DNA of 64,000 nt from Polaribacter sp. L3A8. GTDB taxonomy: Bacteria; Bacteroidota; Bacteroidia; Flavobacteriales; Flavobacteriaceae. Where the stretch lies: the NCBI RefSeq assembly GCF_009796785.1, contig NZ_CP047026.1:1324001-1388000 (forward strand), in the 5' to 3' direction. How positions within the stretch are numbered: the first letter of the stretch is position 1; every line of letters starts with the position of its first letter. A model generated the notes under the pieces. That model was not told where the DNA came from. It did no database searches and saw only the letters and a list, made by a program, of their open reading frames with translations. Positions 18,209 to 39,358 of the stretch are shown piece after piece. The position numbers and the translations under genes are program-made.

Positions 18209-19711
18209 TTAAATAGTTAAAGTATTAAACCAATTTTGCACCAAATTACCTTCCATAGGTTTTATGGTATTATGTATGTAATCATTTTTAATTATATCAT
18301 AATGATAATCTTTAGACCATTCTTTAATATGAGTAGATAGTTCTAATAAAGATTCGCAAATAAAACCCACTTCTTGGTTTGTCATTGTTGGGTGTATAGA
18401 CAAACGAACCCAACCCGGTTTTTCTGTATTACAACCTTCGTGAATTTGAAGTCCTATATTTCTTGAGGTTTGCTGATCTACATTTAGCAAAAAGTGCCCA
18501 TAAGTACCCGCACAAGAACATCCGCCGCGTGTTTGAATACCAAAATGATCATTTAGCAATTTAACCACCAAATTGAAATGGTAATTTTCAAAATAAAATG
18601 AGAAAATTCCTAATCTGTCTTTTTGATCTGGAGCTAAAATATTAACACTGGGTAAAGCTTCTAATGTTTCAAAAATACGAGCATTGATTTCATCTTCTCT
18701 AAGCTTTATCATCGCTACACTCATCTCTTCTTTTAACTGAATGGCAAGTGCTATTTTGATGGTTTGTAAAAATGCAGGTGTACCTCCATCTTCCCTCGTT
18801 TCTACATCGTCAAAATAATCGTGCTGCCCCCAAGGATTTGTGTAACTGACCGTTCCTCCACCAGGATTATCTGGCACGGTGTTTTTATATAATTTTTTAT
18901 TAAAAATTAAAACTCCAGAACTACCAGGGCCTCCAAGAAATTTATGTGGTGAAAAGAAAATAGCATCTAGATATTCTTCTTCATTTTCTGGGTGCATATC
19001 AATATCTACGTAAGGTGCAGAACAAGCAAAATCTACAAAACAAAGTCCAGTGTATTTATGTGTAATTGCTGCAATTTTATGATAGGGTAATTTAATACCC
19101 GTTACATTAGAACATGCGGTTACAGAAACCATCTTTATAGGATGCGCTTTATAGGTTATTAAAAGCTTTTCTAGACTCTCTAAACAAATAAGTCCCTCAT
19201 TATTACTAGGAATTACTTGAACATTTGCAATGGTTTCTAACCAAGAGGTTTGATTTGAGTGATGCTCCATATGCGATACAAAAACAATAGGTCTTAACGC
19301 TTCTGGAATTGCAGTATAATCTTTTAAGTTTTCTAAAACTTTTAACCCAAGAATTCTTTGAAACTTATTTACAACACCAGTCATACCAGAACCTTCTGTA
19401 ATTAGCACATCATTTTTAGATGCATTTACATGTTGTTTTATTCTGGTTCTTGCTTCATGATAAGCAAGCGTCATTGCTGCACCACAAGTAGATGTTTCTG
19501 TATGTGTATTGGCCACAAAAGGGCCAAAACTATGTAACAGTCTCTCTTCAATAGGACGGTAAAGCCTACCACTAGCCGTCCAATCTGTGTAAATAAGTTT
19601 TTTTTCTCCGGATAGAAACATAAAAGTTTGATCTACACCAACTATATTTTTTCTAAATTTATTAAAATACAGCTCTAATTCTGTTTCTTTTTTATGAAGT
19701 AATATTTTCAT
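18209..19711 (-). CDS. Class V PLP-dependent aminotransferase (cysteine-desulfurase-like)
   Basis: A 500-aa fold-type I enzyme. The PLP lysine is Lys257 in F-F-S-P-H-K-F-L-G-G-P-G, with H-x-E-H-H-S-N at 147-152 and V-D-F-A-C-S-A-P near 225 as cofactor-site residues. A cysteine-rich loop, T-R-G-G-C-S-C-A-G, sits near 410 where SufS/CsdA enzymes carry the persulfide cysteine. It is longer than SufS (about 406 aa). No suf or isc genes adjoin it. It lies 40 bp downstream of the dsbD-like gene on the same strand. The substrate is not certain; cysteine or a related thiol is the best guess. Confidence 0.82.
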   Translation of the reverse strand: MKILLHKKETELELYFNKFRKNIVGVDQTFMFLSGEKKLIYTDWTASGRLYRPIEERLLHSFGPFVANTHTETSTCGAAMTLAYHEARTRIKQHVNASKNDVLITEGSGMTGVVNKFQRILGLKVLENLKDYTAIPEALRPIVFVSHMEHHSNQTSWLETIANVQVIPSNNEGLICLESLEKLLITYKAHPIKMVSVTACSNVTGIKLPYHKIAAITHKYTGLCFVDFACSAPYVDIDMHPENEEEYLDAIFFSPHKFLGGPGSSGVLIFNKKLYKNTVPDNPGGGTVSYTNPWGQHDYFDDVETREDGGTPAFLQTIKIALAIQLKEEMSVAMIKLREDEINARIFETLEALPSVNILAPDQKDRLGIFSFYFENYHFNLVVKLLNDHFGIQTRGGCSCAGTYGHFLLNVDQQTSRNIGLQIHEGCNTEKPGWVRLSIHPTMTNQEVGFICESLLELSTHIKEWSKDYHYDIIKNDYIHNTIKPMEGNLVQNWFNTLTI

Positions 19712-19750
19712 TTTTTTTAGTTTTTAAAAGAATCGATTTAAAATAAAAAA

Positions 19751-21730
19751 TTACTTTTTAAAGTTTGAAACACCATTTTTTAACCAGTTTTTATAGGTTT
19801 CTACATCTGGTGTATAAGCAACAGGATCTATTAAATTATTTTCATTATGATCCATCAATACATACATTGGCTGTGTATTGGTTTTGTATTTAATTGTTTG
19901 CAATTCGCTCCATTTTTGTCCGATGTATTTTAACTTCTTACCTGGTTTTAGTTTTGAGTCTACAACCTCATTATCTGGTAAAGGTCTTTTATCATCTACA
20001 TACAATGAAATTAAAATTACATCATTCTTAAGCATCCTTAAAACATTTGGTTTTACCCAAACATTCTGCTCCATCTTTCTACAATTTACACACGCCTTTC
20101 CTGTAAAATCTATCAATACGGGTTTTCCTACTTTTTTTGCATAGGCTAAGCCTTTATCATAATCATTAAAAGCTAAAATATCATGTGGCGCCATTAAATG
20201 AGCTCCCTCTGGAATATCAGACTGTATAGCTTCTCCACCTCCTAACTTAGAAAACCCAACTCCGTAAGGCGATTCACTGTAATGTTGTGGTGGTGGAAAT
20301 GCACTAATTAAATTTAAAGGTGCTCCCCACAATCCCGGAATCATATAAATAGTAAACGACATAACTATTAACCCTAAACTTAATCGACCTACAGAAATGT
20401 GTGCAAGCGGACTATCATGTGGCAATTGTATTTTTCCGAATAAGTAAAATGCAAGAGCTCCAAAAATGGCTATCCAAATGGCTAAGAACATTTCTCTTTC
20501 TAACAAATGTAAATCTAAAACCAAATCTGCATTAGACAAGAATTTAAAAGCCAAGGCTAATTCTAAAAATCCTAAAACAACCTTTACGGTATTTAACCAT
20601 CCTCCAGATTTTGGCAAAGAATTTAACCATCCAGGAAAAGCTGCAAATAATGCAAATGGCAATGCAATTGCTAAAGAAAAACCTAACATCCCTACAATTG
20701 GACCTAGCTGGCTACCACCAGATGCGGCTTCTACTAATAAAGTACCTACAATTGGACCTGTACATGAAAAAGAGACAATTGCTAATGCTAAGGCCATAAA
20801 AAAGATACCGATTAGTCCTCCTTTATCTGCTTGGGCATCTACTTTATTTGCCCAAGAATTAGGTAGCATTATTTCAAAAGCACCTAAAAACGAAGCTGCA
20901 AAAACTAATAATAATAAAAAGAAAATTAAGTTAAACCAAACGTTGGTAGACAATGCATTTAAGGCATCAGCTCCAAAAACTAAACTTACAAATACCCCTA
21001 GTAATACATAGATTACAATAATAGAAATTCCGTAAATAAGTGCATTCTTAATTCCGGCTGCTTTTGTTTTACTTTGCTTTGTAAAAAAACTTACCGTCAT
21101 AGGAATCATCGGAAACACACATGGGGTTAGTAAAGCTGTAAAACCAGATAAAAAAGCTATAAAGAAAATAGCTATTAAATCTTTGTTTTCAGACTTTTTT
21201 TGTTCTTTTTTTATTTCCGAAACTATTTTGTAATCACTTTTTGTATTCTCTACCGTTTCGGTTGTTTTTATTTGAGCTTCTTTTACATTAAATTCTAAAT
21301 CGATATATGAAGGTGGTAAACATTTTGTATCATCACAGATCATAAACTCAACCTCTCCTTTTATCAACAATAATTCTTTGTTTAATACTTTTATGCGCTG
21401 TCTAAACTCTGCTTCATTTTTAAAAAACTTAATTTTTAATCCAAAAACAGGATCATCAATCGTATAACCAATATCTTCAGATACTGTATCTACCAATTCG
21501 AAATCTGAATTGGTTTCAAACGTAAAACTAGTGGCTATCGGACCATCTTCTGGCACATTTTGAGAATAAAGATGCCAACCTTCATCAATCGCTGCATTAA
21601 CAATTAGGATAAACTCTGTTTCTGATTTTTTTTCAACTGAAGTTGTCCAACTCACAGGTTCAAAAATTTGCGCATGGGCACTTAGTACAAAAAAAAATAT
21701 GAACACAAAGTTCTTAAATTTATTTTTCAT
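19751..21730 (-). CDS. dsbD: DsbD-family thiol:disulfide interchange protein
   Basis: It carries electrons from cytoplasmic thioredoxin across the inner membrane to periplasmic thiol proteins. The 659-aa product has a signal peptide, an N-terminal nDsbD-like domain (Cys pair C-D-D-T-K-C near residue 128-133), an eight-helix core with paired cysteines in T-P-C-V-F-P-M and F-S-C-T-G-P, and a C-terminal thioredoxin domain with G-K-A-C-V-N-C-R. It lies downstream of three TlpA-like genes and is a natural electron source for them. The gene name follows domain architecture. Confidence 0.9.
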   Translation of the reverse strand: MKNKFKNFVFIFFFVLSAHAQIFEPVSWTTSVEKKSETEFILIVNAAIDEGWHLYSQNVPEDGPIATSFTFETNSDFELVDTVSEDIGYTIDDPVFGLKIKFFKNEAEFRQRIKVLNKELLLIKGEVEFMICDDTKCLPPSYIDLEFNVKEAQIKTTETVENTKSDYKIVSEIKKEQKKSENKDLIAIFFIAFLSGFTALLTPCVFPMIPMTVSFFTKQSKTKAAGIKNALIYGISIIVIYVLLGVFVSLVFGADALNALSTNVWFNLIFFLLLLVFAASFLGAFEIMLPNSWANKVDAQADKGGLIGIFFMALALAIVSFSCTGPIVGTLLVEAASGGSQLGPIVGMLGFSLAIALPFALFAAFPGWLNSLPKSGGWLNTVKVVLGFLELALAFKFLSNADLVLDLHLLEREMFLAIWIAIFGALAFYLFGKIQLPHDSPLAHISVGRLSLGLIVMSFTIYMIPGLWGAPLNLISAFPPPQHYSESPYGVGFSKLGGGEAIQSDIPEGAHLMAPHDILAFNDYDKGLAYAKKVGKPVLIDFTGKACVNCRKMEQNVWVKPNVLRMLKNDVILISLYVDDKRPLPDNEVVDSKLKPGKKLKYIGQKWSELQTIKYKTNTQPMYVLMDHNENNLIDPVAYTPDVETYKNWLKNGVSNFKK

Positions 21731-21841
21731 TTCTGTATTTTTTAGGATTGTTGATGATTATCAATCTCTTACACCACCTTATCTTCTATTTTTTTTTAAA
21801 AGCTATTTAATAAACTAAAAACTAAGATGATGTATTTTGAT

Positions 21842-23218
21842 TTAAATATTTAAAGAATCGAAAAGTGTTTTTAACTCTTCTTCTGAAGGTCTTGGTGCAT
21901 TTGTATTTACAATTTTACCTTCGGGATCTAAAAGAATGAATTTAGGAATGCCTTTAATAACATAATCTTTGATAAATTCTGAATCAAAATTTTTATCTGC
22001 CAATAACTGAACACCACCAAGCTCTTTATCCTTAATCATAAGCTTCCATTTTTTATAATCTTTTGGCTTATCAACAGAAATACTTACAAATTGAATGTTT
22101 TTACCATGGTAGGCTTTTTCCATTTCCTTTAGGGCAGGAATTTGAGCTAAACACGGGCCGCACCAGGTTGCCCAAACATCAATATAAATATATTTGCCTT
22201 TAAGATCATCTAAAGAGGTTGTTCCGCCTGCAAAATTCTCGTATCCCTCAAACTTTGGAGAAGGCTCTCCAACTTGTATCAATTTCAATTTACTATAATA
22301 ATCTTCTACCTTTTTTAGTTGGTCTTGGTCTGTAGCACCTGTTTTAAATGCATTATAGTAATCATTTAAATCTTTTGTAATAGTGATTCCAAAAATAGCA
22401 CTGTTTAATAAATCTGTTTTCATGGTATTACTAGCTACAGCAGCGTAGGTTTGTACACGTGCCACGTCTTCTGGAATATTTTCTGCATCGCTTAATTGTT
22501 TTGCTTTTTCTCTGTAATACTTTGCAACCAATACTTTATACGCTTTAAAAGATGAATAATCTTCTTCGTGGTTATAATTAACATTTTTAAGAGGATCTAA
22601 AAATTCTTTAGAGACATTGAAATCTGGTTCTTTTGCATAATAGCGATGATAATTTTCATAATTGGCCAACGCTGATAAATGATTATATTCAATATCGCGT
22701 TGTTGCGCAGATTTAAAATTAGCAGAAATGGTTTTGTTACTTGCAAGAAGTTTATTCTGTATTTCTTTTTCTTCGTTAAGCTTTTGCGTAAAGTTTATTT
22801 CATCGAGCATATAGAAGTTTTCACTACCATTAAATGCTTTTACTTTATTTTTTCTTTCTTTTAGAAAATGATTTTCGGCAGATCCATTACCAGTAATTGT
22901 TAATGTACTGTCTAAAAACTTGGCATTGGCAGTTATATTTAGGTTGTACCCTGTTTCTAAATACATTGGTACTTTACCTCTACCATACTTTAAGTTATAA
23001 TACCCCTTTTTTAATTTAATTGTATCATTAAAAGTACCATCAACATTTACAGATATGGTATCTAAAACTTTTCTAGACAAACTGTTAGACACAATAATTT
23101 GTTTAGAACTTCCTTCTTCAATTTTTCCAGAAATAATTGCGTAATCTATAACGTGTACTTCATTTTTACAAGAGAGCACTACTATCGTTATAAGTAAAAT
23201 ATAAATTGCTTTTTTCAT
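21842..23218 (-). CDS. TlpA-like thioredoxin-fold lipoprotein, CGPC active site
   Basis: A 458-aa protein with a lipoprotein signal (V-V-L-S-C-K-N). The N-terminal 120 residues resemble a DUF4369-like beta domain, a helical middle follows, and a C-terminal TlpA/AhpC-TSA thioredoxin domain has D-V-W-A-T-W-C-G-P-C near residue 350 and the cis-proline segment K-G-I-P-K-F. It is probably a periplasmic, membrane-anchored disulfide reductase reduced by the adjacent DsbD. It lies 1 bp from the next TlpA gene, so the two are one operon. Confidence 0.88.
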   Translation of the reverse strand: MKKAIYILLITIVVLSCKNEVHVIDYAIISGKIEEGSSKQIIVSNSLSRKVLDTISVNVDGTFNDTIKLKKGYYNLKYGRGKVPMYLETGYNLNITANAKFLDSTLTITGNGSAENHFLKERKNKVKAFNGSENFYMLDEINFTQKLNEEKEIQNKLLASNKTISANFKSAQQRDIEYNHLSALANYENYHRYYAKEPDFNVSKEFLDPLKNVNYNHEEDYSSFKAYKVLVAKYYREKAKQLSDAENIPEDVARVQTYAAVASNTMKTDLLNSAIFGITITKDLNDYYNAFKTGATDQDQLKKVEDYYSKLKLIQVGEPSPKFEGYENFAGGTTSLDDLKGKYIYIDVWATWCGPCLAQIPALKEMEKAYHGKNIQFVSISVDKPKDYKKWKLMIKDKELGGVQLLADKNFDSEFIKDYVIKGIPKFILLDPEGKIVNTNAPRPSEEELKTLFDSLNI

Positions 23219-23219
23219 T

Positions 23220-24371
23220 TTATTTATTTTTAATGTTTTTATTTAGAAAGTTTTCTACCTCATGTTCTGAGATATTTTTCATTATTATTTTACCAGATTT
23301 ATCCAAAAGAAAGTTACTTGGAAAGGCTTGAATACCAAATTCATTACAAACAGCATTGTCTACATCTAATACTTGCGTCCATGTGGTATTAAATTTATCT
23401 AAAACACGTAACCATTTATTTCTATGGCGTTCACCATCATGAGAAACACCTACAATTTCAAAAACTTCTTTATTGGCCTGATGCAATTCTTTAAGTTTAG
23501 GAAACTGAGCAATACATGGCGGACAGCCACTATACCAAAAATCGACTAATACATATTTACCTTTAAAATCTTCTAAAGAAACCTTGTTTCCGTTTCTGTC
23601 TGGCAATGTAAAGTTTGGTAGATTTCTACCTACAGTTACTTTTTTAGTTAATTCTTTATAATTATATAGTTCTTTTCCTAACCACTTAGATTTCATACTG
23701 CTGCCCAATAAACCATATACATATTCTAAATCTTCTACTTTAGGGTCGTAAGTGTAAAGTGATCTTGCAAATGCTAACGATAAATAAGAGTCTGGATGTT
23801 TCATGATATAATCTAGTTTCTTAATTTCATCTATTTCACCAATCTGAGCATATAAATTTTGTCTTTTTGTTTCTTGTTCTTGGGCCTTATCTTTAAGCAT
23901 AGTTAATGGTTTTGCCATTGCATATAAAGAATCTGATGCCTGTTTTAAATCTGTCCTTGATTTTCTGAAACGTATATACTCGTCATGAACTGTAGAGCCT
24001 TTTACCGCTTTTAAGAATGGATAATTTGAATTTAATTTTACACTAATTTCTCCTGGTTCTAAAAAGAATGATCCATTTGCTTTAGATTTTTTACCATAGA
24101 AACGCGCCCAACTAGGATGTAGAATCTCTCCTTTAAAAACAACCTGTCCTTTATTAGCTTGTTGTTCTATCTTTTTCTTTTTGCCATCCATATCTAAATA
24201 TGTTATTGATAACAACTCGTCATCAGCGCCTTCTATATGAACTAATACTTTAAAATCATGTGATTTGTTTTGTGCTTTTTCTTTGCAATTAAGCAAAATC
24301 AATGAAAATATTATAAAAATTAAGTTTATTACCTTAGGGTGTATTTGGACTTGTATTATTTTTTTTTTCAT
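23220..24371 (-). CDS. TlpA-like thioredoxin-fold lipoprotein, CPPC active site
   Basis: A 383-aa protein with an N-terminal hydrophobic segment and lipobox (L-I-L-L-N-C-K-E near residue 29), a DUF4369-like domain (about 45-120), a helical linker and a TlpA domain with D-F-W-Y-S-G-C-P-P-C near residue 280 and A-F-P-S-N-F as the cis-proline loop. The CPPC dipeptide and the WYSGC context differ from its neighbours, suggesting a different redox potential or partner. It abuts the CGPC paralogue. Confidence 0.87.
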   Translation of the reverse strand: MKKKIIQVQIHPKVINLIFIIFSLILLNCKEKAQNKSHDFKVLVHIEGADDELLSITYLDMDGKKKKIEQQANKGQVVFKGEILHPSWARFYGKKSKANGSFFLEPGEISVKLNSNYPFLKAVKGSTVHDEYIRFRKSRTDLKQASDSLYAMAKPLTMLKDKAQEQETKRQNLYAQIGEIDEIKKLDYIMKHPDSYLSLAFARSLYTYDPKVEDLEYVYGLLGSSMKSKWLGKELYNYKELTKKVTVGRNLPNFTLPDRNGNKVSLEDFKGKYVLVDFWYSGCPPCIAQFPKLKELHQANKEVFEIVGVSHDGERHRNKWLRVLDKFNTTWTQVLDVDNAVCNEFGIQAFPSNFLLDKSGKIIMKNISEHEVENFLNKNIKNK

Positions 24372-24701
24372 GTTTTCTATTTCTTAATTATAACTTAAGC
24401 ACAAGCTTCACTATATCGAACTTAAACTGATAAATTGACTTTCTAAATCTTTAAAGAGAGGCCTTGCTTCTTATTAAATTTGATAACTTAAGCCTACCTC
24501 TTTTTTTGAAGTCACATGATTTTTCAGCATTTATTTATACATACTTCTTCGTATCATTGTAAAAAAAACATCAGAATTCTTTACAAAATTGCTTATACTT
24601 ATCTAGTTTTTTGTAATGTTTATACAGGTTGTATCCTTTGTAGCTAATTACTACAAACTGCTGTATTTATTTTAAACATCCACCTTAAAACCTTCTCTAA
24701 A
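24372..24701. other. Gene-free stretch with two palindromes
   Basis: About 330 bp between two TlpA genes. A hairpin at about 24454-24500 (AGAGGCCTTGCTT / AAGCCTACCTCT, with mismatches) is flanked by a T run and may act as a terminator. A tight palindrome at 24637-24657 (TTTGTAG / CTACAAA, 7-nt centre) has no T run and may be an operator for the 23220-24371 gene or a processing site. Confidence 0.4.
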
Positions 24702-26051
24702 TTAATCTTTAACGTTGCTATAATTTTCTTTAGTCATTGGGTCTTTAGGAAATGGCAAGCCTGATTCTTCTAAAAGTTTATCAATTTTTTCTGCCTCAAG
24801 ATATGGCGCATGATAAGGACGTAACATGTTATAACGTACAACTCCCTTAGGGTCTATGATTGCAACATGTGGAATTCCGGTAACACCAAAATCAGGATTA
24901 AACTCTTCTTGCTCAGTAAATGCTACTTTCCAAGTCATGCCTAAAAACTTCATAAAAGAAGGCATTCCTTCATATTCTATTTCAGGTTGATCTTTAGCAG
25001 GAATTCTTTTTTTATTTTCTTTATCTAAATGATACCCTTGTAAACTTGTTACCCCAATAATTTCTACAGGATAATTTTTGTAGCGTTCTTCTAATTTTCT
25101 GATATTTGGAAAACTTGCAATACAAGGACTGCACCAAGTAGCCCAAAAATCTAGAATAACAACTTTTCCTTTAAAATCTGATAATTCGGTTTCATTTCCT
25201 TTGCTAATCCAGTTTATGTTAAGTTCTGGAGCAGGGTTGTTTAACAATATATGTTTTGCATAAGCTCCACTTAAGAATTTTTTTCTAGAAACAATATTCG
25301 TATTCTTTTTAATATCTTCTTCTGTAATAGCATTTGTAGTTACTTTAAGACATTTTTTTCTAATATACTGTATGTCATTTTCGGAAAGCTTTACCTCGGT
25401 TTCATTTGCTGTTTTAAATAGTATAAATGCGGTATGTGCTGCTCTTTTAGACATAGGCATATCGAGTAATTTTACAATTTCTTGTAAAAGGTTAGAATCG
25501 CCAATGGCTTTAGGGTTTAAAAATTGTAAACGCCCAAATGGTGAGGTTGACATGTTATCTTCTAGCAATAATAATTGCCCAATAGCAGGGTGGTTAACAA
25601 AGTTTTTATAGGTTTCTGCCCATTTTATATTTTGATCATAATCTTTTTGATCTCCATTTTCTGCAATAGGAAAATTAACTGTTGCTATAGATGCTGCTTT
25701 AGCTCCTTCTATATCGGGAGATTTAGCTAGTTCTGCCAATCGTGTTTGCAGAGCTTTTCTAAGCGCATTACTTTTATATAATATTCCATCATCATTAAAA
25801 GTTTTAATCTGAGACAAACTAAGTTTGTTAAATGAAAAAACTTCAGAAAAGCTATCGATTACTTTTTTTGAAGCAGCTGTTTTAGTGCTATCGGCGGTCT
25901 TGCTTTTTATAATATCTAATAAGTTATTATGTAACGCTGTTAACTGCTCTACTGTTGCTGTAGATTTATCTTTAGAAGTACAAAAACTAAACATTAATAA
26001 TGTGAAGAAACATACTACTATAATATTTAAATAATTACTTGTTATTTTCAT
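24702..26051 (-). CDS. TlpA-like thioredoxin-fold lipoprotein, CSPC active site
   Basis: A 449-aa lipoprotein (lipobox L-M-F-S-F-C-T-S near residue 24) with a long helical N-terminal half, unlike the DUF4369-type halves of its two neighbours. The C-terminal TlpA domain has D-F-W-A-T-W-C-S-P-C near residue 305, an extended insert with a Lys-rich loop before the cis-proline V-T-G-I-P-H-V, and about 20 residues after the fold. It sits between the DUF4465/SusD genes and the other TlpA genes, separated by 330 bp on one side and 131 bp on the other. Confidence 0.86.
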   Translation of the reverse strand: MKITSNYLNIIVVCFFTLLMFSFCTSKDKSTATVEQLTALHNNLLDIIKSKTADSTKTAASKKVIDSFSEVFSFNKLSLSQIKTFNDDGILYKSNALRKALQTRLAELAKSPDIEGAKAASIATVNFPIAENGDQKDYDQNIKWAETYKNFVNHPAIGQLLLLEDNMSTSPFGRLQFLNPKAIGDSNLLQEIVKLLDMPMSKRAAHTAFILFKTANETEVKLSENDIQYIRKKCLKVTTNAITEEDIKKNTNIVSRKKFLSGAYAKHILLNNPAPELNINWISKGNETELSDFKGKVVILDFWATWCSPCIASFPNIRKLEERYKNYPVEIIGVTSLQGYHLDKENKKRIPAKDQPEIEYEGMPSFMKFLGMTWKVAFTEQEEFNPDFGVTGIPHVAIIDPKGVVRYNMLRPYHAPYLEAEKIDKLLEESGLPFPKDPMTKENYSNVKD

Positions 26052-26182: not shown

Positions 26183-27007
26183 TTATCTCACCAAACGAAT
26201 ACCATCCAAACAAAAATAAGGAGGAGTTAATAACTCACCCGTTACAGAATCTACATCAGATCCTTCTAAATTAAACACGAGTTTATCAACTTCACCTAAT
26301 TCGGTTAAATCCCATCTCATCCACTCTCTAACTACAAATGTTCTCGTAGGAAAAAGTGGGTCTACTCTAGAAGAGGCCAAGTAAAATTCTAGTTCACCAG
26401 TAAAAGTATCTCCATTGTAACCTTTTACAATAGCTTTTAAATAATCACCTTCCTCATTAAGTCTTTTTGCTCCACCTGTATTTAATTCCCAAACACCTAT
26501 TGCACTAGCTTTAATGTTTGGATTTTGTCTAGGAGAATCTTCTGTTCCGTAAGGATCTCCATACTGCATAGATAAGTAGTTATAACTTGTATTTGCAATT
26601 AAAACATGTTCAACTACAGAAGGGTTTTCAAACGTAATAAAGGCATCGTCATCTTTAACATGAGCTACAGCAAAGGTTTTTGTTTTATTTAAATAAGTAT
26701 GTGTATAAACACTATAAATAACAGAGTCTAAAGCCGTTTGTGTTGTAGTCCAAGTATATGAAGCGTAGTTTCTATTAGAATATGCAAACCCACTATAAGA
26801 ACCGTCTGAATTATTAACGGTGTTAAAAGTAGCCACATCGGATGTAAAGCTACTAGTAGGAATAACATGATTAAAGACACCTACACTTTCATCTAATTCA
26901 TTTAATGTAATATCATTTGGAATAGGAAGTGGATCATTGAACTTTGTTTCACATCCTAAAAGCGTAATTATTGATAAAACAAGTATATATATAAAATTAT
27001 TTTTCAT
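26183..27007 (-). CDS. DUF4465 lipoprotein
   Basis: A 274-aa protein with a lipobox (T-L-L-G-C-E-T, Cys19). The sequence fits DUF4465: S-S-F-T-S-D-V, a Y-S-G-F-A-Y-S-N-R segment, A-V-A-H-V-K, a G-E-L-E-F-Y-L-A motif, W-M-R-W-D-L-T-x-L-G-x-V and a C-terminal T-P-P-Y-F-C-L-D. The fold is a beta-sandwich expected at the cell surface. It is 38 bp downstream of susD, where surface ligand-binding lipoproteins of SusCD loci usually lie. Its ligand is unknown. Confidence 0.82.
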   Translation of the reverse strand: MKNNFIYILVLSIITLLGCETKFNDPLPIPNDITLNELDESVGVFNHVIPTSSFTSDVATFNTVNNSDGSYSGFAYSNRNYASYTWTTTQTALDSVIYSVYTHTYLNKTKTFAVAHVKDDDAFITFENPSVVEHVLIANTSYNYLSMQYGDPYGTEDSPRQNPNIKASAIGVWELNTGGAKRLNEEGDYLKAIVKGYNGDTFTGELEFYLASSRVDPLFPTRTFVVREWMRWDLTELGEVDKLVFNLEGSDVDSVTGELLTPPYFCLDGIRLVR

Positions 27008-31600: not shown

Positions 31601-32074
31601 AACTCCTATGTTTGTTTTTTTAAGAAGAACCGTTACACCTGGTAGAGGTGTTTTATATGAATCGGAAACATTTCCTGTGATAATTTGTTGTGTTTTAACT
31701 GAAATCGGTTTTTCTTCAATAACAATAGTAGATTTATTAATCAGCTTAAAATTTAAACCTGCAAATAATAAGCTTTTATCTAATAAATCATTGGCTTTAA
31801 TATTTCCTTTATTTAAGGTTACATCTGGAAAATCTTTAAACAGATCTACTTTATAAATAAAAGTATAATCAGTTTGCTCCATGATGATATCAAAAACTTC
31901 ATCAACAGTAACAGTTTGATTCTTATCTATTTTAATTTTGGCGTTTTGAGACAAAACGTTATTTGGCGTGAAACTGAAAACCGTAGCACAAAATAATAGA
32001 ATGAAGGTTTTCATAATAATTAGCAATAGTTTTCTTCTTAATAAAAAAAGAATATTAGTTAATTTAATTTCCAT
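28616..32074 (-). CDS. SusC/RagA TonB-dependent transporter with STN domain (second pair)
   Basis: A 1152-aa outer-membrane importer. After the signal region come an STN signalling domain (about residues 45-125), a carboxypeptidase-regulatory-like domain (about 130-205), a TonB box-like V-V-I-G-Y-G-T, the plug with D-A-A-S-A-A-I-Y-G-S-R-A-A-N-G and the 22-strand barrel. The STN domain indicates signalling through FecR to the ECF sigma factor. The first 80 residues are nearly identical to the SusC at 34008, so they are recent paralogues at this end; the barrels diverge strongly. Confidence 0.94.
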   Translation of the reverse strand: MEIKLTNILFLLRRKLLLIIMKTFILLFCATVFSFTPNNVLSQNAKIKIDKNQTVTVDEVFDIIMEQTDYTFIYKVDLFKDFPDVTLNKGNIKANDLLDKSLLFAGLNFKLINKSTIVIEEKPISVKTQQIITGNVSDSYKTPLPGVTVLLKKTNIGVATDFNGNFEIKANIGDVLKFSYVGYETKEVVIDKTKLKVRLIEDVSSLDEVVVIGYGTTKIKEATGAINYISAKELSSAPVQNTVQSVIQGRAAGVNVMVQSSAPDSPISVIIRGSSSLSGDSQPLWVIDGVPEYGAGTSGDISNTLYNLNLDDVESINILKDAASAAIYGSRAANGVVLVTTKRGKKGSKPQIDLSITTSIITPNSGKYRLFNSEEYKDHIISKTADEILNSSSWSTNAKMIFDYDAFLALNTSTQYNRDMLTVLPDAFGDGDTNWWDEIVQQSTSQRYNLAVSGGSEATRYRASLTYGKNDGVVVNSYSKNYGLTLNLDTDVSDKFTYRLNMSATSRESQGKNGVLEKITSFRPDLPAYNEDGTFYNPDSYFKENPLVSINNTNKGVSNNMRINNSFIYKPLSNLTLKTSANISLSNSTYNTFNHSGTSYASNRGAYRSLSKGNGNTMVWENMVTYFEEINDHKIDFTGVYSMEQSKSDRLTGSAYDYFDEEKLISLNYGTNFNRPTESFSETHIVSALGRIRYDFKKRYLATFTLRADGSSRFGDGNSWGYFPSGGIAWLISEEPFMKSLQKTIPYLKLRTSLGKSGSQNVSAYGWRKLLQATNSFEEGALVPGSNIGNSNLQWEETKQLDIGLDFALLNNKLSGTLGYYERTIDNMIFTKRLAPSSGYATTPYNVASITNNGLEFDLTYNIIRKDDISLKVSANIARNWGKLNKLDGVLESLNFPTGWGATSQAITATPGESLGNWYGFQTAGRWFATAEEIIALRERATTGYSNNKYLHTGDVPGGLYPIDQNGDGKIDIEDRVKLNSTFNPVAFGGFSMQFRYKAFSLNSQFTYSYGNKKYWYAMQSLINSNHWDNKFAIIENGYSYTGDPYSQFPSNPVNYNYQFNENYIFDASYIKLNNLSVNYNVPKDFLKKGMISKLVFSLQATNVFTITKYPGMDPQGNWDSEWNGSFFGMGIDRGIYPPARAYNFNMKLTFK

Positions 32075-32177
32075 AAATTTGTACGTTTTTAGTTAGTTAA
32101 TCTTTTTGGTTTAATTAATTAATAATTACAAAAGGGGATAAAGTTTTTTCTTTGAACGGTCTAATACTTTGTTCCCT
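32075..32177 (-). promoter_or_regulatory. Duplicated susC upstream region, copy 2
   Basis: About 100 bp between susC and the fecR relic, nearly identical to 37368-37470 upstream of the other susC. Shared blocks include a CGTTTTTAGTTA segment, TTAATTAATTAATAATTACA and TTTGAACGGTCTAATACTTTG. Conservation of non-coding sequence between divergent paralogues suggests a promoter or leader. Confidence 0.6.
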
Positions 32178-32416
32178 TTACTTTTTTAAAATCGGTGTAT
32201 TTTTTTTATTTCATAGGCATTTATATATTTTGGTTTTTTTAATTAATAAAAGTATATTCTTAAGGTTTTGACTTTTACTTATCACTCCTTAAAATTTATT
32301 TTTTTTTGAGTTATCATCTTCAAAAAACAACATCATAGCATCTAGAAAAGATGTTTATTATTTCTTTTAGAGTTCTGTTTTTAAAACCAAACAAACTACG
32401 TTTCTAAACTACTTTA
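32178..32416 (-). pseudogene. Decayed 3-prime fragment of fecR
   Basis: This stretch aligns with the last 240 bp of the intact fecR at 37471. Read on the minus strand it gives interrupted FecR-like sequence (F-K-N-R-T-L-K-E-I-I, S-R-C-Y-D-V, K-Y-I-N-A-Y-E-I-K-K) with several stops. It lies directly upstream of the second susC, exactly where the intact fecR lies relative to the first. Confidence 0.8.
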
Positions 32417-32646
32417 AATAATTATCTATTTATAAAGCAGTCAATTGGTTAAAAGAAAAAAATAGAAACCTTACTTAAAACAGCTATTGTTTCTTTTTAC
32501 TTATCCCATTAGTTATGTATAAAACATTAACTAAAATTACACACACCATTTGTACATGCCTTTGTTTTAGGATACAATTTTTAAGTTTTAAGTTAAACAG
32601 GTATTTTTGCGTACCTATTTAACTTAAAAACTATTTTGAATAAACT
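32417..32646. other. Gene-free remainder between the two SusCD units
   Basis: About 230 bp of AT-rich sequence past the recognisable fecR relic. I see no open frame or terminator that I can support; it may be more of the decayed fecR. Confidence 0.3.
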
Positions 32647-33996
32647 TTAATATCCTGGGTTCTGCTCTACAACGTTATTACTAGTAGTAACCGAATTAAA
32701 AGGGATAGGCAGTATATATTGGTTTTTACTAGTTACTAGAGGTTTTATGGTAGAAATATCAAAACCATCAAGATCTGCATACCTTACAAGATCAAACCAA
32801 GGTTCTTGCTCTTCTGCTACTAATTCTAAAAATTTCTCAACACGTATCGCTTCAATCAATTCCTCTCTTGTGCTTGCTGTAGTATTAAGCAAACCTGCTC
32901 TATTTCTTACAGTATTAACAGCAGCAGCCACATCTATTAGACTTCCGTTAGATCTTGCCAAAGCTTCTGCATAGATAAGATATACTTCTGGCAGTCTTAA
33001 ATAATAATTAGTGGCACCATCAAAGAAAAAAGGCGCTTTACCATTTAAATACCCTCTAGTTGGGTGCTCGAAATTAACAATATCTAATCTGGTATCTCCT
33101 TGAGAAGTAGCAAAATTTACATAATATTCTGATAAACTTAGGTACAACCACCAACCTACGCTGGTACCATTATATTCCGTATCGCTATGAATGTTTGAAA
33201 ATAAAACTTCACTAGAATTAAATTCGTTCTCAAAAACCTCTGCAAAGGTATTTTCTAATGTAAAACCACTATTCAGTATAACATCGTTAGCCAAAGTAGC
33301 AGCCTCAGAAAATTTCCCCATATATAATAACACTCTAGATTTTAGTCCTTTTGCTGCAAATTTATTAGCATGATAACTAACGTTAGAAGCTGGTAAATTT
33401 TCTATAGCATAATCTAAATCACTTAAAATAAAATCATAAGATGCCTGCACGCTACTTCTTGGTAAAACCTCTAATGTAGACGCTTGTTTTTCTCTTAAAA
33501 CAATACCATAAGGAGACTCTAAATCCCAAAATTGCCCAAACCTTCTTAAAAGATAAAGACTCATTACACTTCTTAAAAATCTAGCCTCTGCAACAATATG
33601 ATTTTTTTTACCTGGTTCAAATAAGTTATCCTCTAGTTCTGGCACTATATTAATAACGTAATTTGCTCTGTTAATTAGATTATAGTAAGATGAATATACC
33701 AGTGCAATTGTTCCATTCTCTGAATCAACATTATTGGTTGAATACCCATTAGAAGATCCTTTAGGATCTGTATCTATATAAAAGGGATATATATTAATAC
33801 CTGTTACGGCTAAATTACCATCATTTAAGGTACTGTAAGTACCTGCTAACGCTAACTCAGCTCCTATTTGGTCTGTAATTGCTGTTTCTTCTGTTAATAC
33901 ATCTTGCGCCTCAATATCTGTAACATTAACTAGCTCACAAGAATAAATAGAAAAAGTTAATATAAATACTATGATGATATTCTGATAATTTTTCAT
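32647..33996 (-). CDS. RagB/SusD-family outer-membrane lipoprotein (first pair)
   Basis: A 449-aa lipoprotein with lipobox I-Y-S-C-E-L (Cys20). SusD motifs include A-E-A-R-F-L-R-S near residue 135, the TPR-like helices A-A-K-G-L-K-S-R-V-L-L-Y-M-G-K near 210, L-R-L-P-E-V-Y-L-I-Y-A-E-A and the ending Y-I-L-P-I-P. It lies 11 bp after its SusC partner. It is shorter than the second-pair SusD and clearly diverged from it, so the two pairs probably bind different ligands. Confidence 0.93.
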   Translation of the reverse strand: MKNYQNIIIVFILTFSIYSCELVNVTDIEAQDVLTEETAITDQIGAELALAGTYSTLNDGNLAVTGINIYPFYIDTDPKGSSNGYSTNNVDSENGTIALVYSSYYNLINRANYVINIVPELEDNLFEPGKKNHIVAEARFLRSVMSLYLLRRFGQFWDLESPYGIVLREKQASTLEVLPRSSVQASYDFILSDLDYAIENLPASNVSYHANKFAAKGLKSRVLLYMGKFSEAATLANDVILNSGFTLENTFAEVFENEFNSSEVLFSNIHSDTEYNGTSVGWWLYLSLSEYYVNFATSQGDTRLDIVNFEHPTRGYLNGKAPFFFDGATNYYLRLPEVYLIYAEALARSNGSLIDVAAAVNTVRNRAGLLNTTASTREELIEAIRVEKFLELVAEEQEPWFDLVRYADLDGFDISTIKPLVTSKNQYILPIPFNSVTTSNNVVEQNPGY

Positions 33997-34007
33997 GTGA
34001 TTTTTTT

Positions 34008-37000
34008 TTAAAGTTGTACGTTAATTCCAAAAACAAAACTTTTAGACAAAGGATATTCATCAGCATCAGTATAATTAAAGAAACTTTGTCTACCATCATC
34101 TCTACTTGTTTCTGGATCTAACCCTGGGTATTTAGTAAATGTTAATAAATTACTTAATGACATGTATATGTTAATATTATTAGCGTTTATCTTTTTAATT
34201 ATGCCCTTTGGCAAGGTGTAACCTAATCTAACATTTTTTAAACGGACAAAGGATGCATCATGTACAAATGCGTCTGACCTTCTATCGTTATTATTTGGAT
34301 CATTTAATACTAATCTTGGTCTTGTACCATCTGTATTTGTTGGAGACCAAGCATCTTGAACATTATCTTTAATAACATTTCTAATATCTTTTAAAACACC
34401 TGCAGCCTCCCAAACTTTTGAGTTTCCGTAAGAGTATTGCCATAGTGTGGATAGACTAAAACTTTTATATTGAAAAGTTGTTGTAAGCCCTCCAAAAAAA
34501 TCTGGTTGAATAGATCCTAATACTTCTGTATCTGTACTAGTTATAACGCCATCTTCATTAAGATCTTTAAATATGTAATCTCCAGGAGCGGTTCCGGAGG
34601 ATTGATACCTGCCAGTAGGTGAAGCGTTATTAAGAGTAGTTATTTCTTCTTGAGTTTGAAAAATACCTTCTACTCTATAACCTCTAATTGTTCCTAAGGG
34701 TTGACCTTCTTCAACTAAAGAAGTTCCTCCTGTAGAAAAAGGAAAACCACCTTCTAAATCGATAATTTTGTTCTGTATAGATGTAAAATTAAAACTGGTG
34801 TTAAAAGTAAAATCTTGTGTTCTAATAATATCTGCATCTATCTGAAACTCAATACCCTTATTATCCATAATACCTACATTGGCACTTTGGCTATTATAAC
34901 CTAATTCTAACTGAACGGGTCTATTCATTAATAAATCCTCTACTCTTTTAGTAAAATACCCAACTGTTCCATTTAAGCGAGCATCAAAAAAACTAAAATC
35001 AATTGCTACATCTAATTGTTTTGTTTTTTGCCATCTAATATCAGGATTAGGCAAACCAAGAGGAGCAATACCATTTAAGCCATCATAACTATATCCTGCT
35101 CCAAAAAAAGTATCATACAAAAAATCAGAAACATTTGCTAAACCTGTTAACCCATAACTAGTTCTTAATTTTAAATTATCAACCCAGGTTATGCTTTTCA
35201 TAAAAGATTCATTACTAATATTCCACGCTAAAGCTCCTGAAGGGAATTTTCCCCATCTATTATTAGGCCCAAATTTAGAAGACTCGTCTGCTCTAAATGT
35301 AAAAGTTGCATAATAGCGACTATCAAAATTATAATTGAGTCGTGTAAAATATGACACCAAACCACTAGAAGCATTTCCTCCACCGGCACTAGTAATATCA
35401 TTTGCTGAACCTATGTTATTAATTTGTTCATAATTAGCAAATCCCTCAACACCAATATTAGAGTAGTGATCCTCTGTTTTGTAAAAAGAAGCACCTACAA
35501 GTGCATTAATAGCATGTTTATCATTAAAAAGTTTCTTATAAGTCAGTGTATTATCAAACGTAGTGTTAAATGTACGTCCATTTCGTTCAGATCGAGTTGC
35601 CTCATCATTGCCCGATGCCGTTGGTGGGTTAAAGAAATTGCTTTCTGTTAAATATAAACTCGCATTAAGCTGTGTTCTAAAAGTTAGTTCTGGTATAAAG
35701 TCTACTTCGGCAAATATATTACCCAACAAGCTATTAGAATGTCTTTTGCTATCTTTACCAGAAGTAGCTACTGGATTAGGATCTCCATTATAATTATTAA
35801 AACTGCCATTGTCTTGGTAGATGCTATAATCTGGTCTATACCTAATAGCATCTTGTATAGCAAACAATCCAGAACTGCCGTAATTAAGTGAATTAGTAAA
35901 ATTTAAATTGGTACCTACTTTAAAATTTTTAGTAAAGTTAGTTTCAATATTGGTTCGAATATTATAGCGTTTAAATCCGGTTTTATCAATAATTCCTTCC
36001 TGATCAGATAAATTAATATTAAAAGAATAGATACTTTTTTCACTTCCTCCAGAAATACCTAAACCAAAATTTTTAGTCATCGCAGAACGGGTTATTTGCT
36101 TTTGCCAATTAGTGTTTCCGTTTTGAAAAAAATTAGGATCATTTAAAATACTTGTTTTTAAAGAGTTATTCCCAGAAAAATTTTGAGCTGCAATTGTTAA
36201 ATTAGATTTGTATTCATCTGCACTTAATACATCATACAACTCCAAAGGTTTATCTATTGTTAGTGAAGAATTTATAGAAATAGTTGGTTTTTGATTTTTA
36301 CGACCTCTTTTAGTAGTTACAATAACTACTCCATTGGCAGCTCTAGAACCATAAATTGCTGCAGAAGATGCATCTTTTAAAATATCGATACTTTGGATGT
36401 CATCTGGATCAATAGATGCTAATGGATTTCCTCTACTTCCAATCCCAGCATCAAACGAATAACCACTTACATAGTTAGGATGCGTATCAATAGGGATACC
36501 ATCGATTACGTATAATGGTTGATTATATCCTAAAACAGAAGAAACACCACGTATGTTTATAACAATGCCCTCTCCTGGACGACCTGTTGTTTGCTTAACA
36601 AATACACCTGGTGCTTTGGCTGCAATAGCTTGCTCAAAAGTAGTTGGTGTTATATTTGCAATTTCTGAACTAGAGATTGATGATACCGAACCTGTAACAT
36701 CCTTTTTACGAACCGATCCATAACCAACAACCACAACTTCTTCTAATGATTCATCATCTGGTTTTAATACAATGTTAATAGGTGCATCTTTAGATGTTAC
36801 TTCTACTTCTTTATTTTTTTTTCCTAAATATTGAAATACTAAAACATCGCCAATATTTGCTGCAATTTTATAATTTCCATCAATATCAGTAGTTGTTCCT
36901 CTTTTGTTTCTCTTTATTAAAATAGTAACTCCTGGTAAAGGACCTCCGTTTTCTTCAGTAACCTGACCTTTAATAGGTTCTTGAACTATAGATTTACTAG

Positions 37001-37367
37001 GTTTGTTTGTAATAACTATAGTGTTTTTATTTGTTAATTCGAAATTGAACTTATCTCTTGCTAAGGACTTTAATAACAAGTCATTAGCCCTAATTTTTCC
37101 TTTATTTAAGGTTACGCTTGGAAAACCCTTAAACATATCTACTTGATATATAAAAGTATAATCAGTTTGTTTCATGATGATATCAAAAACCTCATCAACA
37201 GTAATGGTTTGATTCTTATCAATTTTAATTTTGGCGTTTTGCGACAAAACGTTATTTGGTGTAAAACCAAAAACCGTAGCACAAAATAATAAAATGAAGG
37301 TTTTCATGATGATTAGTAATAGTTTTCTTCCTTGTGAAAAAAGAATATTAGTTAATTTAATTTCCAT
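34008..37367 (-). CDS. SusC/RagA TonB-dependent transporter with STN domain (first pair)
   Basis: An 1119-aa importer with the same order of parts: N-terminal signal, STN domain (about 45-120), carboxypeptidase-regulatory-like domain (P-L-P-G-V-T-I-L), V-V-V-G-Y-G, plug with D-A-S-S-A-A-I-Y-G-S-R-A-A-N-G and the barrel. The start M-E-I-K-L-T-N-I-L-F and most of the STN region match the second SusC almost word for word. An internal ATG at M21 (MKTFILLF) would give a more typical signal peptide and may be the true start in both paralogues. The intact fecR is 103 bp upstream. Confidence 0.94.
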   Translation of the reverse strand: MEIKLTNILFSQGRKLLLIIMKTFILLFCATVFGFTPNNVLSQNAKIKIDKNQTITVDEVFDIIMKQTDYTFIYQVDMFKGFPSVTLNKGKIRANDLLLKSLARDKFNFELTNKNTIVITNKPSKSIVQEPIKGQVTEENGGPLPGVTILIKRNKRGTTTDIDGNYKIAANIGDVLVFQYLGKKNKEVEVTSKDAPINIVLKPDDESLEEVVVVGYGSVRKKDVTGSVSSISSSEIANITPTTFEQAIAAKAPGVFVKQTTGRPGEGIVINIRGVSSVLGYNQPLYVIDGIPIDTHPNYVSGYSFDAGIGSRGNPLASIDPDDIQSIDILKDASSAAIYGSRAANGVVIVTTKRGRKNQKPTISINSSLTIDKPLELYDVLSADEYKSNLTIAAQNFSGNNSLKTSILNDPNFFQNGNTNWQKQITRSAMTKNFGLGISGGSEKSIYSFNINLSDQEGIIDKTGFKRYNIRTNIETNFTKNFKVGTNLNFTNSLNYGSSGLFAIQDAIRYRPDYSIYQDNGSFNNYNGDPNPVATSGKDSKRHSNSLLGNIFAEVDFIPELTFRTQLNASLYLTESNFFNPPTASGNDEATRSERNGRTFNTTFDNTLTYKKLFNDKHAINALVGASFYKTEDHYSNIGVEGFANYEQINNIGSANDITSAGGGNASSGLVSYFTRLNYNFDSRYYATFTFRADESSKFGPNNRWGKFPSGALAWNISNESFMKSITWVDNLKLRTSYGLTGLANVSDFLYDTFFGAGYSYDGLNGIAPLGLPNPDIRWQKTKQLDVAIDFSFFDARLNGTVGYFTKRVEDLLMNRPVQLELGYNSQSANVGIMDNKGIEFQIDADIIRTQDFTFNTSFNFTSIQNKIIDLEGGFPFSTGGTSLVEEGQPLGTIRGYRVEGIFQTQEEITTLNNASPTGRYQSSGTAPGDYIFKDLNEDGVITSTDTEVLGSIQPDFFGGLTTTFQYKSFSLSTLWQYSYGNSKVWEAAGVLKDIRNVIKDNVQDAWSPTNTDGTRPRLVLNDPNNNDRRSDAFVHDASFVRLKNVRLGYTLPKGIIKKINANNINIYMSLSNLLTFTKYPGLDPETSRDDGRQSFFNYTDADEYPLSKSFVFGINVQL

Positions 37368-37470
37368 AAATTTATACGTTTTTAGTTATTTAATCATTTT
37401 GGTTTAATTAATTAATAATTACAAAAGGAGATAAAGTTTCTTCTTTGAACGGTCTAATACTTTGCTCCCT
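37368..37470 (-). promoter_or_regulatory. Duplicated susC upstream region, copy 1
   Basis: The counterpart of 32075-32177, with only scattered substitutions over about 100 bp. It lies between fecR and susC and is a candidate promoter or mRNA leader recognised by the neighbouring ECF sigma factor. Confidence 0.6.
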
Positions 37471-38643
37471 TTACTTTTTTAAAATTAGTGTGTTTTCTTT
37501 TATTTCATAATTCTTTATATATTTAGTTTTTTTAATTAGTAATAGTATATCTGCAAGGTTTTGATTTTTACTTATAACCCCTTTAAATTTAACATCTTCT
37601 AAGCTTTTATCTTCAAAAACAACATCAACATCATACCATCTAGAAAGAACTTTCATTATTTCTTTTAGAGTTTTGTCTTTAAAACTAAACAAACCACGTT
37701 TCCAAACTACTTCAGAGTAAGCATCAACTTGTGTAGAAATAATTAAACTATTTTTTTTAGTATCAAGTACTGCCTGCTCGCTAGGTTTTAGAATATTTTT
37801 TTTATTAAAATTATACAACGCAATACTTCCTTTAAGAAGGGTGGTATAAATTAAATCTTCATCAGAATATGCTTTAATATTAAACTCTGTACCTAAAACT
37901 TCTATTTCTTGTAAATTAGATAATACCTTAAATTTAGATCCATTGTGGTTTATGCTTGATGACACCTCAAAATAAGCTTCTCCATACACCAATTCTACAA
38001 TTCGAGTTTCCCCTTCAATAAAATTAACTGGATATTTTAATTTTGATGCTGAATTTAGCCAAACTTTTGTTCCGTCGGACAAACTAACAAAAAACTGACC
38101 TCCTCTTGGTATTGTTAAATAATTGTAAACTATCTCTTTTGTTTTTTGTTCTTTATACTTGTAAATAATTTTTTCTCCGTTGCTTTTTACGTTATCCTTT
38201 GTGTATTTAGTTCCTTTTTCTAAGGCTACACTTGTGCCATCTTCTAAAGTTAAAACAGCTTTATCAGTCCCCGTTTTTATTTTATTGATAACCCCCACAT
38301 TTTTATTTAAGATGTTATAAACAATAGTGTCCTTAAAAAAATAAGTCCCTATAAAAAGCCCTATAACTAATACAGCAGCTACAATTCTTCTAATGCGATA
38401 ATAAGATTTCATTCTAAAAACCTTTTTATCTTTATTAATTTTTTCTAATAACTGTTTTTTTGTATTATGTTTACTAAACTCTTTTGTACTATAGTCAATT
38501 GCAAAATTTACTTTAACATAACTTTTAAACACCTCTTCATTATTACCTTCTTTAATCCAAAGCTCTAATTTTTCTAATTCTGCTATAGATATTTGATTGG
38601 TAAGATATTTTATAATTAAGTTTTCGTCTTCCGAAATAATCAT
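37471..38643 (-). CDS. FecR-family anti-sigma/sensor protein
   Basis: A 390-aa inner-membrane regulator. The N-terminal 85 residues are cytoplasmic (anti-sigma part), one TM helix follows (about 90-107, A-A-V-L-V-I-G-L-F-I-G), then a periplasmic FecR domain (R-G-G-Q-F-F-V-S-L-S-D-G-T-K-V-W-L-N-S) and a C-terminal STN-contacting DUF4974-like domain (F-K-D-K-T-L-K-E-I-M). The open frame extends upstream to 38685, but the MIISEDEN start at 38643 is the usual beginning. It diverges from the ECF sigma gene and probably relays SusC occupancy to it. Confidence 0.9.
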   Translation of the reverse strand: MIISEDENLIIKYLTNQISIAELEKLELWIKEGNNEEVFKSYVKVNFAIDYSTKEFSKHNTKKQLLEKINKDKKVFRMKSYYRIRRIVAAVLVIGLFIGTYFFKDTIVYNILNKNVGVINKIKTGTDKAVLTLEDGTSVALEKGTKYTKDNVKSNGEKIIYKYKEQKTKEIVYNYLTIPRGGQFFVSLSDGTKVWLNSASKLKYPVNFIEGETRIVELVYGEAYFEVSSSINHNGSKFKVLSNLQEIEVLGTEFNIKAYSDEDLIYTTLLKGSIALYNFNKKNILKPSEQAVLDTKKNSLIISTQVDAYSEVVWKRGLFSFKDKTLKEIMKVLSRWYDVDVVFEDKSLEDVKFKGVISKNQNLADILLLIKKTKYIKNYEIKENTLILKK

Positions 38644-38761
38644 TTTATTTTTATTATTTTTATATATAACGCACAAAATTAACAATACCCTAACTTTTTT
38701 TTAATTTATTTTTATACTTTGCGCAAATAACAACAATAATCCTCAATCTATTTAACAATAA

Positions 38762-39358
38762 ATGCACTCTTATACGAACAATAATCTATTTATTGAAGCT
38801 CTTAAAAAAGGCGCCCCCAAAGCTTATACATTTTTGGTAGATACTTATCATCAGAAATTATGTGTTTATGCATATGGACTAATCCACGACCATGATACGG
38901 CAGAAGACATTGTACAAAATGTCTTTTTAAAAACATGGACAAATCGTGAAAAACTAAAAACAGATTTATCCATCAACAGCTATCTATACAAATCTGTTTA
39001 CAATGAATTTATAGATCAATATCGCAAACAAAAAAAGATATTCCCTTTGGATAAAAAATATATTGACACCATTTTAACATTCGTTGAAGACGACGATACT
39101 TCATTTGATAAATTAATAGCCGATGTTAAACAAGAGATTCAGAACCTCCCAAAGAAATGTAAAGAAACATTTCTCTTAAGCAAAGAAGAAGGTTTAACAA
39201 ATATTGAAATTGCAGAATATAAAAATGTCTCCCTTAAAACAGTAGAAGCTCACATGACAAAGGCTTTTTCTATTTTAAGATTAAAAGTAGGACTTAAAAT
39301 GAATAGTATTTTATTTTTATTATACGGTGGTAATAATGGAGCCTTACGCAAATCTTAG
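38762..39358 (+). CDS. ECF RNA polymerase sigma factor
   Basis: A 198-aa sigma-70 protein with region 2 (D-T-A-E-D-I-V-Q-N-V-F-L-K-T-W) and region 4 (L-P-K-K-C-K-E-T-F-L-L-S, then I-A-E-Y-K-N-V-S-L-K-T-V-E-A-H-M). This is the Bacteroidota group that works with FecR and STN-containing SusC proteins. It is divergent from fecR with 118 bp between start codons. It should direct transcription of the SusCD genes when substrate is sensed. Confidence 0.92.
   Translation: MHSYTNNNLFIEALKKGAPKAYTFLVDTYHQKLCVYAYGLIHDHDTAEDIVQNVFLKTWTNREKLKTDLSINSYLYKSVYNEFIDQYRKQKKIFPLDKKYIDTILTFVEDDDTSFDKLIADVKQEIQNLPKKCKETFLLSKEEGLTNIEIAEYKNVSLKTVEAHMTKAFSILRLKVGLKMNSILFLLYGGNNGALRKS

Follow-up and report, generated by a model that had tools for sequence, protein, structure and literature searches.

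What does a SusC/SusD uptake locus import when its neighbouring genes encode thiol enzymes and none for polysaccharide breakdown? The question is raised by a locus at positions 18209 to 39358 of a 64,000-nucleotide stretch of the Polaribacter sp. L3A8 genome (contig NZ_CP047026.1), the whole of which is called the window here; the host genome consists of one contig of 4.22 Mb. In the current study the locus is read, tentatively and with somewhat less than even confidence, as an operon that is induced by its own cargo, which it imports and reduces in the periplasm; the cargo would carry disulfides and most probably consist of peptides or a peptide conjugate. The case that its gene content is more than chance rests on conservation across genomes; within the host genome, permuting Redoxin against SusD positions gave no significant excess (3 observed against 1.6 expected, fraction 0.22).

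All 12 genes were found as open reading frames (ORFs) at the coordinates given beforehand. The gene for the extracytoplasmic function (ECF) sigma factor lies on the plus strand, divergent from the rest of the locus, and the minus strand carries, in order, fecR, susC1, susD1, susC2, susD2, the DUF4465 gene, three tlpA-like genes, dsbD and a gene for a pyridoxal phosphate (PLP) enzyme. Intergenic gaps measure 1 to 131 bases, except for a 572-base gap ahead of susC2 and one of 330 bases separating the first two tlpA genes; no relic was found in the latter gap (24372-24701). Families were assigned with Pfam and NCBIfam models against their curated cut-offs.

38762..39358, plus strand: ECF-type sigma factor, divergent from fecR (TIGR02985, 130 bits, cut-off 126.4; Sigma70_r2/r4_2)
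37471..38685, minus strand: FecR anti-sigma factor/transducer (FecR and FecR_C exceed Pfam cut-offs)
34008..37367, minus strand: SusC1 with STN-like N-terminal extension (TIGR04056, 864 bits, cut-off 368.25)
32647..33996, minus strand: SusD1 (SusD_RagB and SusD-like_3 above Pfam cut-off)
32181..32415, minus strand: relic of fecR (3' end), decayed by a frameshift and stops (tblastn with the window FecR, E 1e-15)
31547..32184, minus strand: susC2 leader and STN-like 5' part (80% DNA identity to 36840-37477 in susC1; blastn E 2e-164)
28616..32074, minus strand: SusC2 (TIGR04056, 759 bits, cut-off 368.25)
27046..28608, minus strand: SusD2 (SusD-like_3 and SusD_RagB above Pfam cut-off)
26183..27007, minus strand: DUF4465 lipoprotein with a B12-binding fold, placed where a surface ligand-binding lipoprotein would stand
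24702..26051, minus strand: TlpA-like reductase, CSPC, helical N-terminal domain 34-261 (Redoxin)
23220..24371, minus strand: TlpA-like reductase, CPPC, DUF4369 N-terminal domain (Pfam)
21842..23218, minus strand: TlpA-like reductase, CGPC, probable lipoprotein (Pfam; signal sequence by eye)
19751..21730, minus strand: DsbD-type electron transporter with alpha, transmembrane and thioredoxin parts (DsbD_N, DsbD_TM, Thioredoxin_7)
18209..19711, minus strand: class V PLP enzyme, SufS-like (Aminotran_5)

The first-pass annotation of this DNA had described two STN-SusC/SusD pairs under an ECF/FecR switch, followed by the DUF4465, TlpA-like, DsbD and desulfurase-like proteins, with no glycoside hydrolase, lyase, sulfatase, esterase or sugar transporter. 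Both pairs, FecR and the ECF sigma factor were recovered together with all the proteins said to follow them, the motifs CSPC, CPPC and CGPC being read directly from the three AhpC-TSA/Redoxin translations, and no match to any of the enzyme or transporter classes said to be missing was obtained for the twelve proteins in Pfam and NCBIfam. A polysaccharide locus was rejected as a candidate, as no carbohydrate-active enzyme (CAZyme) was present among the operon proteins. The STN domain (PF07660) proved weaker than described: SusC1 matched below the Pfam threshold (E 0.11) and SusC2 gave no match, and "STN-like" here denotes the roughly 125 residues by which the N-terminus is extended, as in other ECF/FecR-linked SusCs.

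The DUF4465 assignment (PF14717) is supported by a score of 128.7 bits against a cut-off of 25 and by the fold. For the CSPC protein, the AlphaFold2 model had a predicted local distance difference test score of 93.8 and ResA-type folds headed the Foldseek list; its helical N-terminal domain had no row of its own among the 50 matches listed, all of them thioredoxin-fold proteins. The three-part architecture of DsbD scored above the Pfam cut-offs, with only 151.5 bits for NCBIfam PRK00293 (cut-off 330). The PLP enzyme, in which no signal sequence was seen, reached 146.2 bits with the SufS model TIGR01979, far under its cut-off of 475.1, and its nearest solved structures by sequence are cysteine desulfurases. 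Searches of SusD1 and SusD2 against solved structures gave mixed, mostly weak matches, pointing to no cargo. A scan for promoters and terminators was uninformative (82 promoter-like sites against 89.0 expected, 10 terminator-like sites against 7.5 expected). Outside the operon, a small separate thioredoxin-fold protein (Pfam) is encoded beyond TPI at window positions 42738-43238.

Iron citrate-type transporters are the classical clients of ECF/FecR switches, and the window FecR matches the ferric citrate model, though weakly (43.8 bits, cut-off 385); the cargo might accordingly be a metal complex (a metallophore, haem or copper chelate) freed by thiol reduction. This appears very unlikely: no metal-uptake family was present among the operon proteins and 20 Pfam-scanned neighbour proteins, which are a minority of the neighbours.

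Loci with DUF4465 relatives were collected by scanning genome contigs with patterns derived from aligned relatives of this protein, and 45 were obtained. ORFs in these were called mechanically and neighbours were named by phmmer with the window proteins; the neighbour counts are lower bounds, since the stretches stop about 10 kb on and, in six loci, less than 9 kb past DUF4465. A SusD2 homologue precedes DUF4465 in 43 of the 45 loci, a linkage that is partly by construction because the patterns were built from relatives of the window's own DUF4465, and a SusC2 homologue in 42 (L027 is a short contig). SusCD is missing from the two remaining loci, which belong to Phocaeicola and Bacteroides. 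Upstream of the SusCD-type DUF4465 genes, FecR was found in 34 of 43 loci and ECF in 33, and within two genes downstream a thioredoxin-fold protein was found in 32, being TlpA-like in 28 and, in the other four, assigned by BLAST clustering with L016, whose protein is Thioredoxin_2 by Pfam. DsbD and the PLP enzyme are present in at least seven of the 43 (L023, L031, L033, L037, L043, L047 and L049, from Lutibacter, Polaribacter, Tamlana, Algibacter and Winogradskyella). This gene order recurs across many genera. The condition under which the first-pass annotation would have given up its own reading, a lack of linkage in relatives, did not arise for TlpA, and DsbD and the PLP enzyme are linked in the seven loci just named.

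The window locus itself looks accessory, since in one sample DUF4465 is missing from the other three genomes of this genus. A tRNA-Arg at window positions 17960-18036, 172 bases past the end of the PLP gene, marks the edge of the locus and is a possible insertion point.

The first pair belongs to a clade of its own with a similar thiol neighbourhood. At E 1e-40, SusD1 relatives were detected in 22 of 299 genomes of the family, host included; neighbourhoods were analysed for 20 of the 31 matches (window included) and additionally for G440 (L107). Within four genes after SusD1, a TlpA-like gene was present in 16 of the 20 loci and either a TlpA-like or an M16 peptidase gene in 19, the only locus with neither being truncated by a contig end.

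These neighbourhoods bear on a quite unlikely alternative, in which the cargo is no substrate of the thiol enzymes, which instead keep the envelope proteins of the uptake system reduced or protected from oxidants. TlpA-like proteins are general envelope reductases, and DsbD with the PLP enzyme is a generic pair, both in keeping with such a role. In the host, however, no TlpA, DsbD, PLP or M16 gene lies beside the 19 other SusD matches (16 regions), and the Redoxin model had no match within 39 kb of them; SusCD as such therefore does not need thiol enzymes. Moreover, an M16 peptidase gene replaces or accompanies the TlpA genes in some loci of the SusD1 clade. The combination of ECF/FecR with an STN-like SusC was found in only one of the 16 other host SusD regions (L153).

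Comparison with three relatives suggests how the two pairs came together. L133 carries ECF, FecR, SusC1, SusD1, TlpA (CSPC type) and TlpB (CPPC type) in this order, without SusC2, SusD2 or DUF4465; L107 has ECF, FecR, SusC1, SusD1, a gene of 220 amino acids, two TlpB genes, TlpC, DsbD and the PLP enzyme; and L010 has ECF, FecR, SusC2, SusD2, DUF4465 and TlpA (CSPC type). The body of the window SusC1 is 88% identical to that of L133. By this comparison the window looks like a SusC2-SusD2-DUF4465 block placed within a SusC1-SusD1 thiol locus.

SusC2 is itself composite. Its body is 33% identical to the SusC1 body and 75% to the SusC2 body of L010, whereas its N-terminal part is 81% identical to the SusC1 counterpart and 50% to that of L010 SusC2. 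Before susC2 lies the relic at 32181-32415, with 60-62% identity to the window's own FecR. The simplest reading of the relic and the swapped N-terminal domain is that a copied segment comprising the end of fecR, the leader and the STN-like part replaced the front of susC2, which would have rewired this gene onto the FecR/ECF switch of the first pair. Both SusCs would then report to one FecR.

Neighbourhoods of the PLP enzyme, 40 of 84 matches and mostly the best-scoring ones, showed that the last two genes form a module of their own. DsbD lies within three genes of the PLP gene in 25 of the 40, and M16 was found nearby in nine, a TlpA-like gene in nine and SusC (>200 bits) in seven. Among 149 family genomes, 148 have DsbD and 79 the PLP enzyme at E 1e-60, and the host has a second, solitary DsbD-PLP pair (L093). 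The pair, which the first-pass annotation counted with the thiol set, is therefore not specific to this locus, and it was rejected as proof of cargo chemistry because it is generic.

The same figures are in keeping with a simpler system of SusCD, DUF4465 and TlpA, at the end of which DsbD-PLP would be an unrelated housekeeping pair. This is a rather unlikely account, as the pair repeatedly terminates SusCD-TlpA loci, both in the seven DUF4465 loci above and in six of other SusCD types (L099, L107, L114, L127, L128, L151). From the neighbourhood counts and the solitary pair in the host, DsbD-PLP is better regarded as a module recruited repeatedly by SusCD-TlpA loci. It was also observed that in L101, L103, L108 and L119 the pair follows a giant protein (1798-3058 amino acids, some incomplete) and a gene of about 330 amino acids, which we take to be a PorP/SprF-type partner. 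Full-length DsbD is preceded by an additional short DsbD-like gene (about 150 amino acids) in L094, L099, L102-L104, L106, L108, L128, L150, L043 and L047; in the last two the short gene resembles the N-terminal domain of DsbD.

DUF4465 introduces a different candidate ligand. It is a B12-binding domain (PMC13398666), and the family as a whole was recently proposed to bind B12, a property that the first-pass annotation overlooked when it proposed import of a thiol-bearing ligand. A corrinoid-like ligand is therefore a serious option: SusC2-SusD2-DUF4465 would import a corrinoid or another ligand resembling a tetrapyrrole, perhaps in conjugated form, which the thiol enzymes would reduce or free of a thiol ligand. 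On alignment, the BtuJ residues Tyr146, Thr242 and Tyr245 are matched by Y142, T261 and Y264 of the window protein. The counterpart of BtuJ Asn241 is L260, however, and this position is Asn in none of 44 SusCD-type proteins.

Regulation also argues against a corrinoid. The cobalamin riboswitch (RF00174) was not found in the window by Rfam, nor was an operon-linked one in any of the 40 SusCD-type DUF4465 loci scanned out of 43; in L035, L053 and L054 a B12 box was looked for by pattern only. The sole stretch among the 40 to contain a riboswitch is L049 (positions 621-851), where it lies on the opposite strand at a distance of some 9 kb. By contrast, a cobalamin riboswitch lies upstream on the same strand in all nine non-SusCD DUF4465 loci scanned (L051, L052, L169-L175). 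For the 36 loci that include DNA before susC (all except L012, L024, L027 and L036), the Fisher p is 1e-9, or 1e-8 if L049 is counted as a match; with all 40 loci it is 5e-10, or 5e-9. A riboswitch was present elsewhere in 34 of the 38 genomes bearing SusCD-type loci. The missing riboswitch is not proof against a B12 role, since one B12 operon of B. theta without an identifiable riboswitch is still regulated by B12 (PMC12751083).

The operon contains no BtuCDF gene, and the host has B12-related genes elsewhere. Of its three cobalamin riboswitches, one (L009) precedes cobalamin-synthesis genes, with CobM/CbiF and CobJ/CbiH above cut-off after it and CbiB just before; another (L008) lies between a gene for a periplasmic binding protein, taken to be BtuF, which it follows, and genes for a TonB receptor and a DUF5074 propeller, taken to be BtuB and BtuG, which it precedes. 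The third, at about 10103-10289 of L007 (G000:C1:2419102-2419288, minus strand), faces two plus-strand ORFs of 176 and 151 amino acids that may be a split transposase. A survey of 395 genomes with the family hidden Markov model gave 11 further DUF4465 places, of which eight were examined (all but G077, G012 and G308); query searches found no SusC or SusD near these eight, leaving the window as the only SusCD-type case in the sample. At one of them, L176, which is outside the Rfam scan and whose DUF4465 was missed by the queries, BtuB/BtuG-like genes were found. Plain B12 nutrition was rejected as first choice on the riboswitch test, and corrinoid import in the form given above is considered unlikely. 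Import of a disulfide peptide is ranked first because a peptide covers both SusCD clades; second comes a corrinoid or tetrapyrrole as ligand of the DUF4465 branch. The thiol and peptidase neighbours agree with a disulfide peptide and DUF4465 with a corrinoid-like part; the cargo may be both, e.g. a conjugate.

The peptidase neighbours belong to sister loci. In the DUF4465 set, where they lie downstream of the DUF4465 gene, M16 was assigned by Pfam in L023 and by clustering and motif in L043 and L050, L048 being a possible fourth. The M16, trypsin-like and PNGase-F-like labels come from one or two Pfam-scanned members per group; Trypsin_2 and M16 were confirmed in the scanned members, and the M16 genes retain HxxEH. 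PNGase-F-like secreted proteins with sorting domains adjoin two DUF4465 loci, L046 and L049.

The sequence itself shows the gene content, its conservation, the swapped domain and the B12-type fold, and no B12 riboswitch was found; for peptide import, the following course is proposed. With the presumed membrane topology, SusD and the DUF4465 lipoprotein would capture the cargo at the surface and SusC1/SusC2 would import it. Occupancy would be signalled to the single FecR by the STN-like domains, which both SusCs now have in similar form, and the ECF sigma factor would thereby be released. The TlpA-like proteins would reduce cargo disulfides in the periplasm with electrons presumably supplied by DsbD, peptidases would cleave the opened peptide, and the cytosolic PLP enzyme may process the sulfur of the freed cysteine. 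The tie between uptake and thiol chemistry drawn by the first-pass annotation is retained, being kept in relatives and joined there by peptidases among the extra genes of sister loci.

Several observations weigh against peptide import. The window operon contains no peptidase gene, M16 or trypsin-like genes being known from sister loci, and in the DUF4465 loci M16-type genes occur in just 3 of 43 and trypsin-like genes in 5. Eleven of the 43, in Bacteroidales or other Bacteroidetes genomes, have no thioredoxin-fold neighbour, and DsbD and the PLP enzyme mostly occur apart from SusCD. The DUF4465 proteins tested so far bind B12, and peptide binding is not reported in the accessible text of PMC13398666.

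A disulfide peptide as cargo would add to the SusCD loci a class that relies on reduction in place of glycan hydrolysis. It is possible, though doubtful, that Bacteroidota hold such a further SusCD class, in which import is coupled to reductive and not glycolytic processing of the cargo, with one branch in which the DUF4465 fold, freed from B12 regulation, captures a new ligand, cofactor-like or linked to a peptide, which would have to undergo periplasmic reduction. The DUF4465 clade of the window and 43 loci, linked to SusCD and mostly to ECF/FecR and with no operon-linked riboswitch found, offers a direct test of the generalisation that the family binds B12.

Among known systems, polysaccharide utilisation loci share the SusCD core and a surface lipoprotein after SusD, but the window operon has no CAZyme. 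To our knowledge, the thiol reductases, the DUF4465 lipoprotein and the ECF/FecR switch of the window locus are absent from RagAB. RagAB-type peptide SusCD systems (PMC11817032) resemble the window locus in the SusC/SusD pair, whose neighbours in some sister loci serve proteolysis and are not CAZymes. The SusCD-DUF4843-PKD_2 loci L099 and L128 (M16, DsbD, TlpA-like, PLP) carry the same kind of thiol/peptidase module, with DUF4843 and PKD_2 proteins replacing DUF4465. BtuJ1/BtuJ2-type lipoproteins share with the window protein the Pfam family, the fold, a lipoprotein-like signal and the tyrosines of the HI loop and DE helix; the latter differs in its replaced Asn241 counterpart, in having no cobalamin riboswitch or BtuB, BtuG or BtuF beside it and in its pairing with SusCD and ECF/FecR. 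The first-pass annotation knew of no described system of this composition, and none was found among the matches listed from the open-access literature. SusCD, DUF4465, TlpA and ECF/FecR are individually known; as far as seen, their combination, the clade without B12 riboswitches and the domain swap are undescribed.

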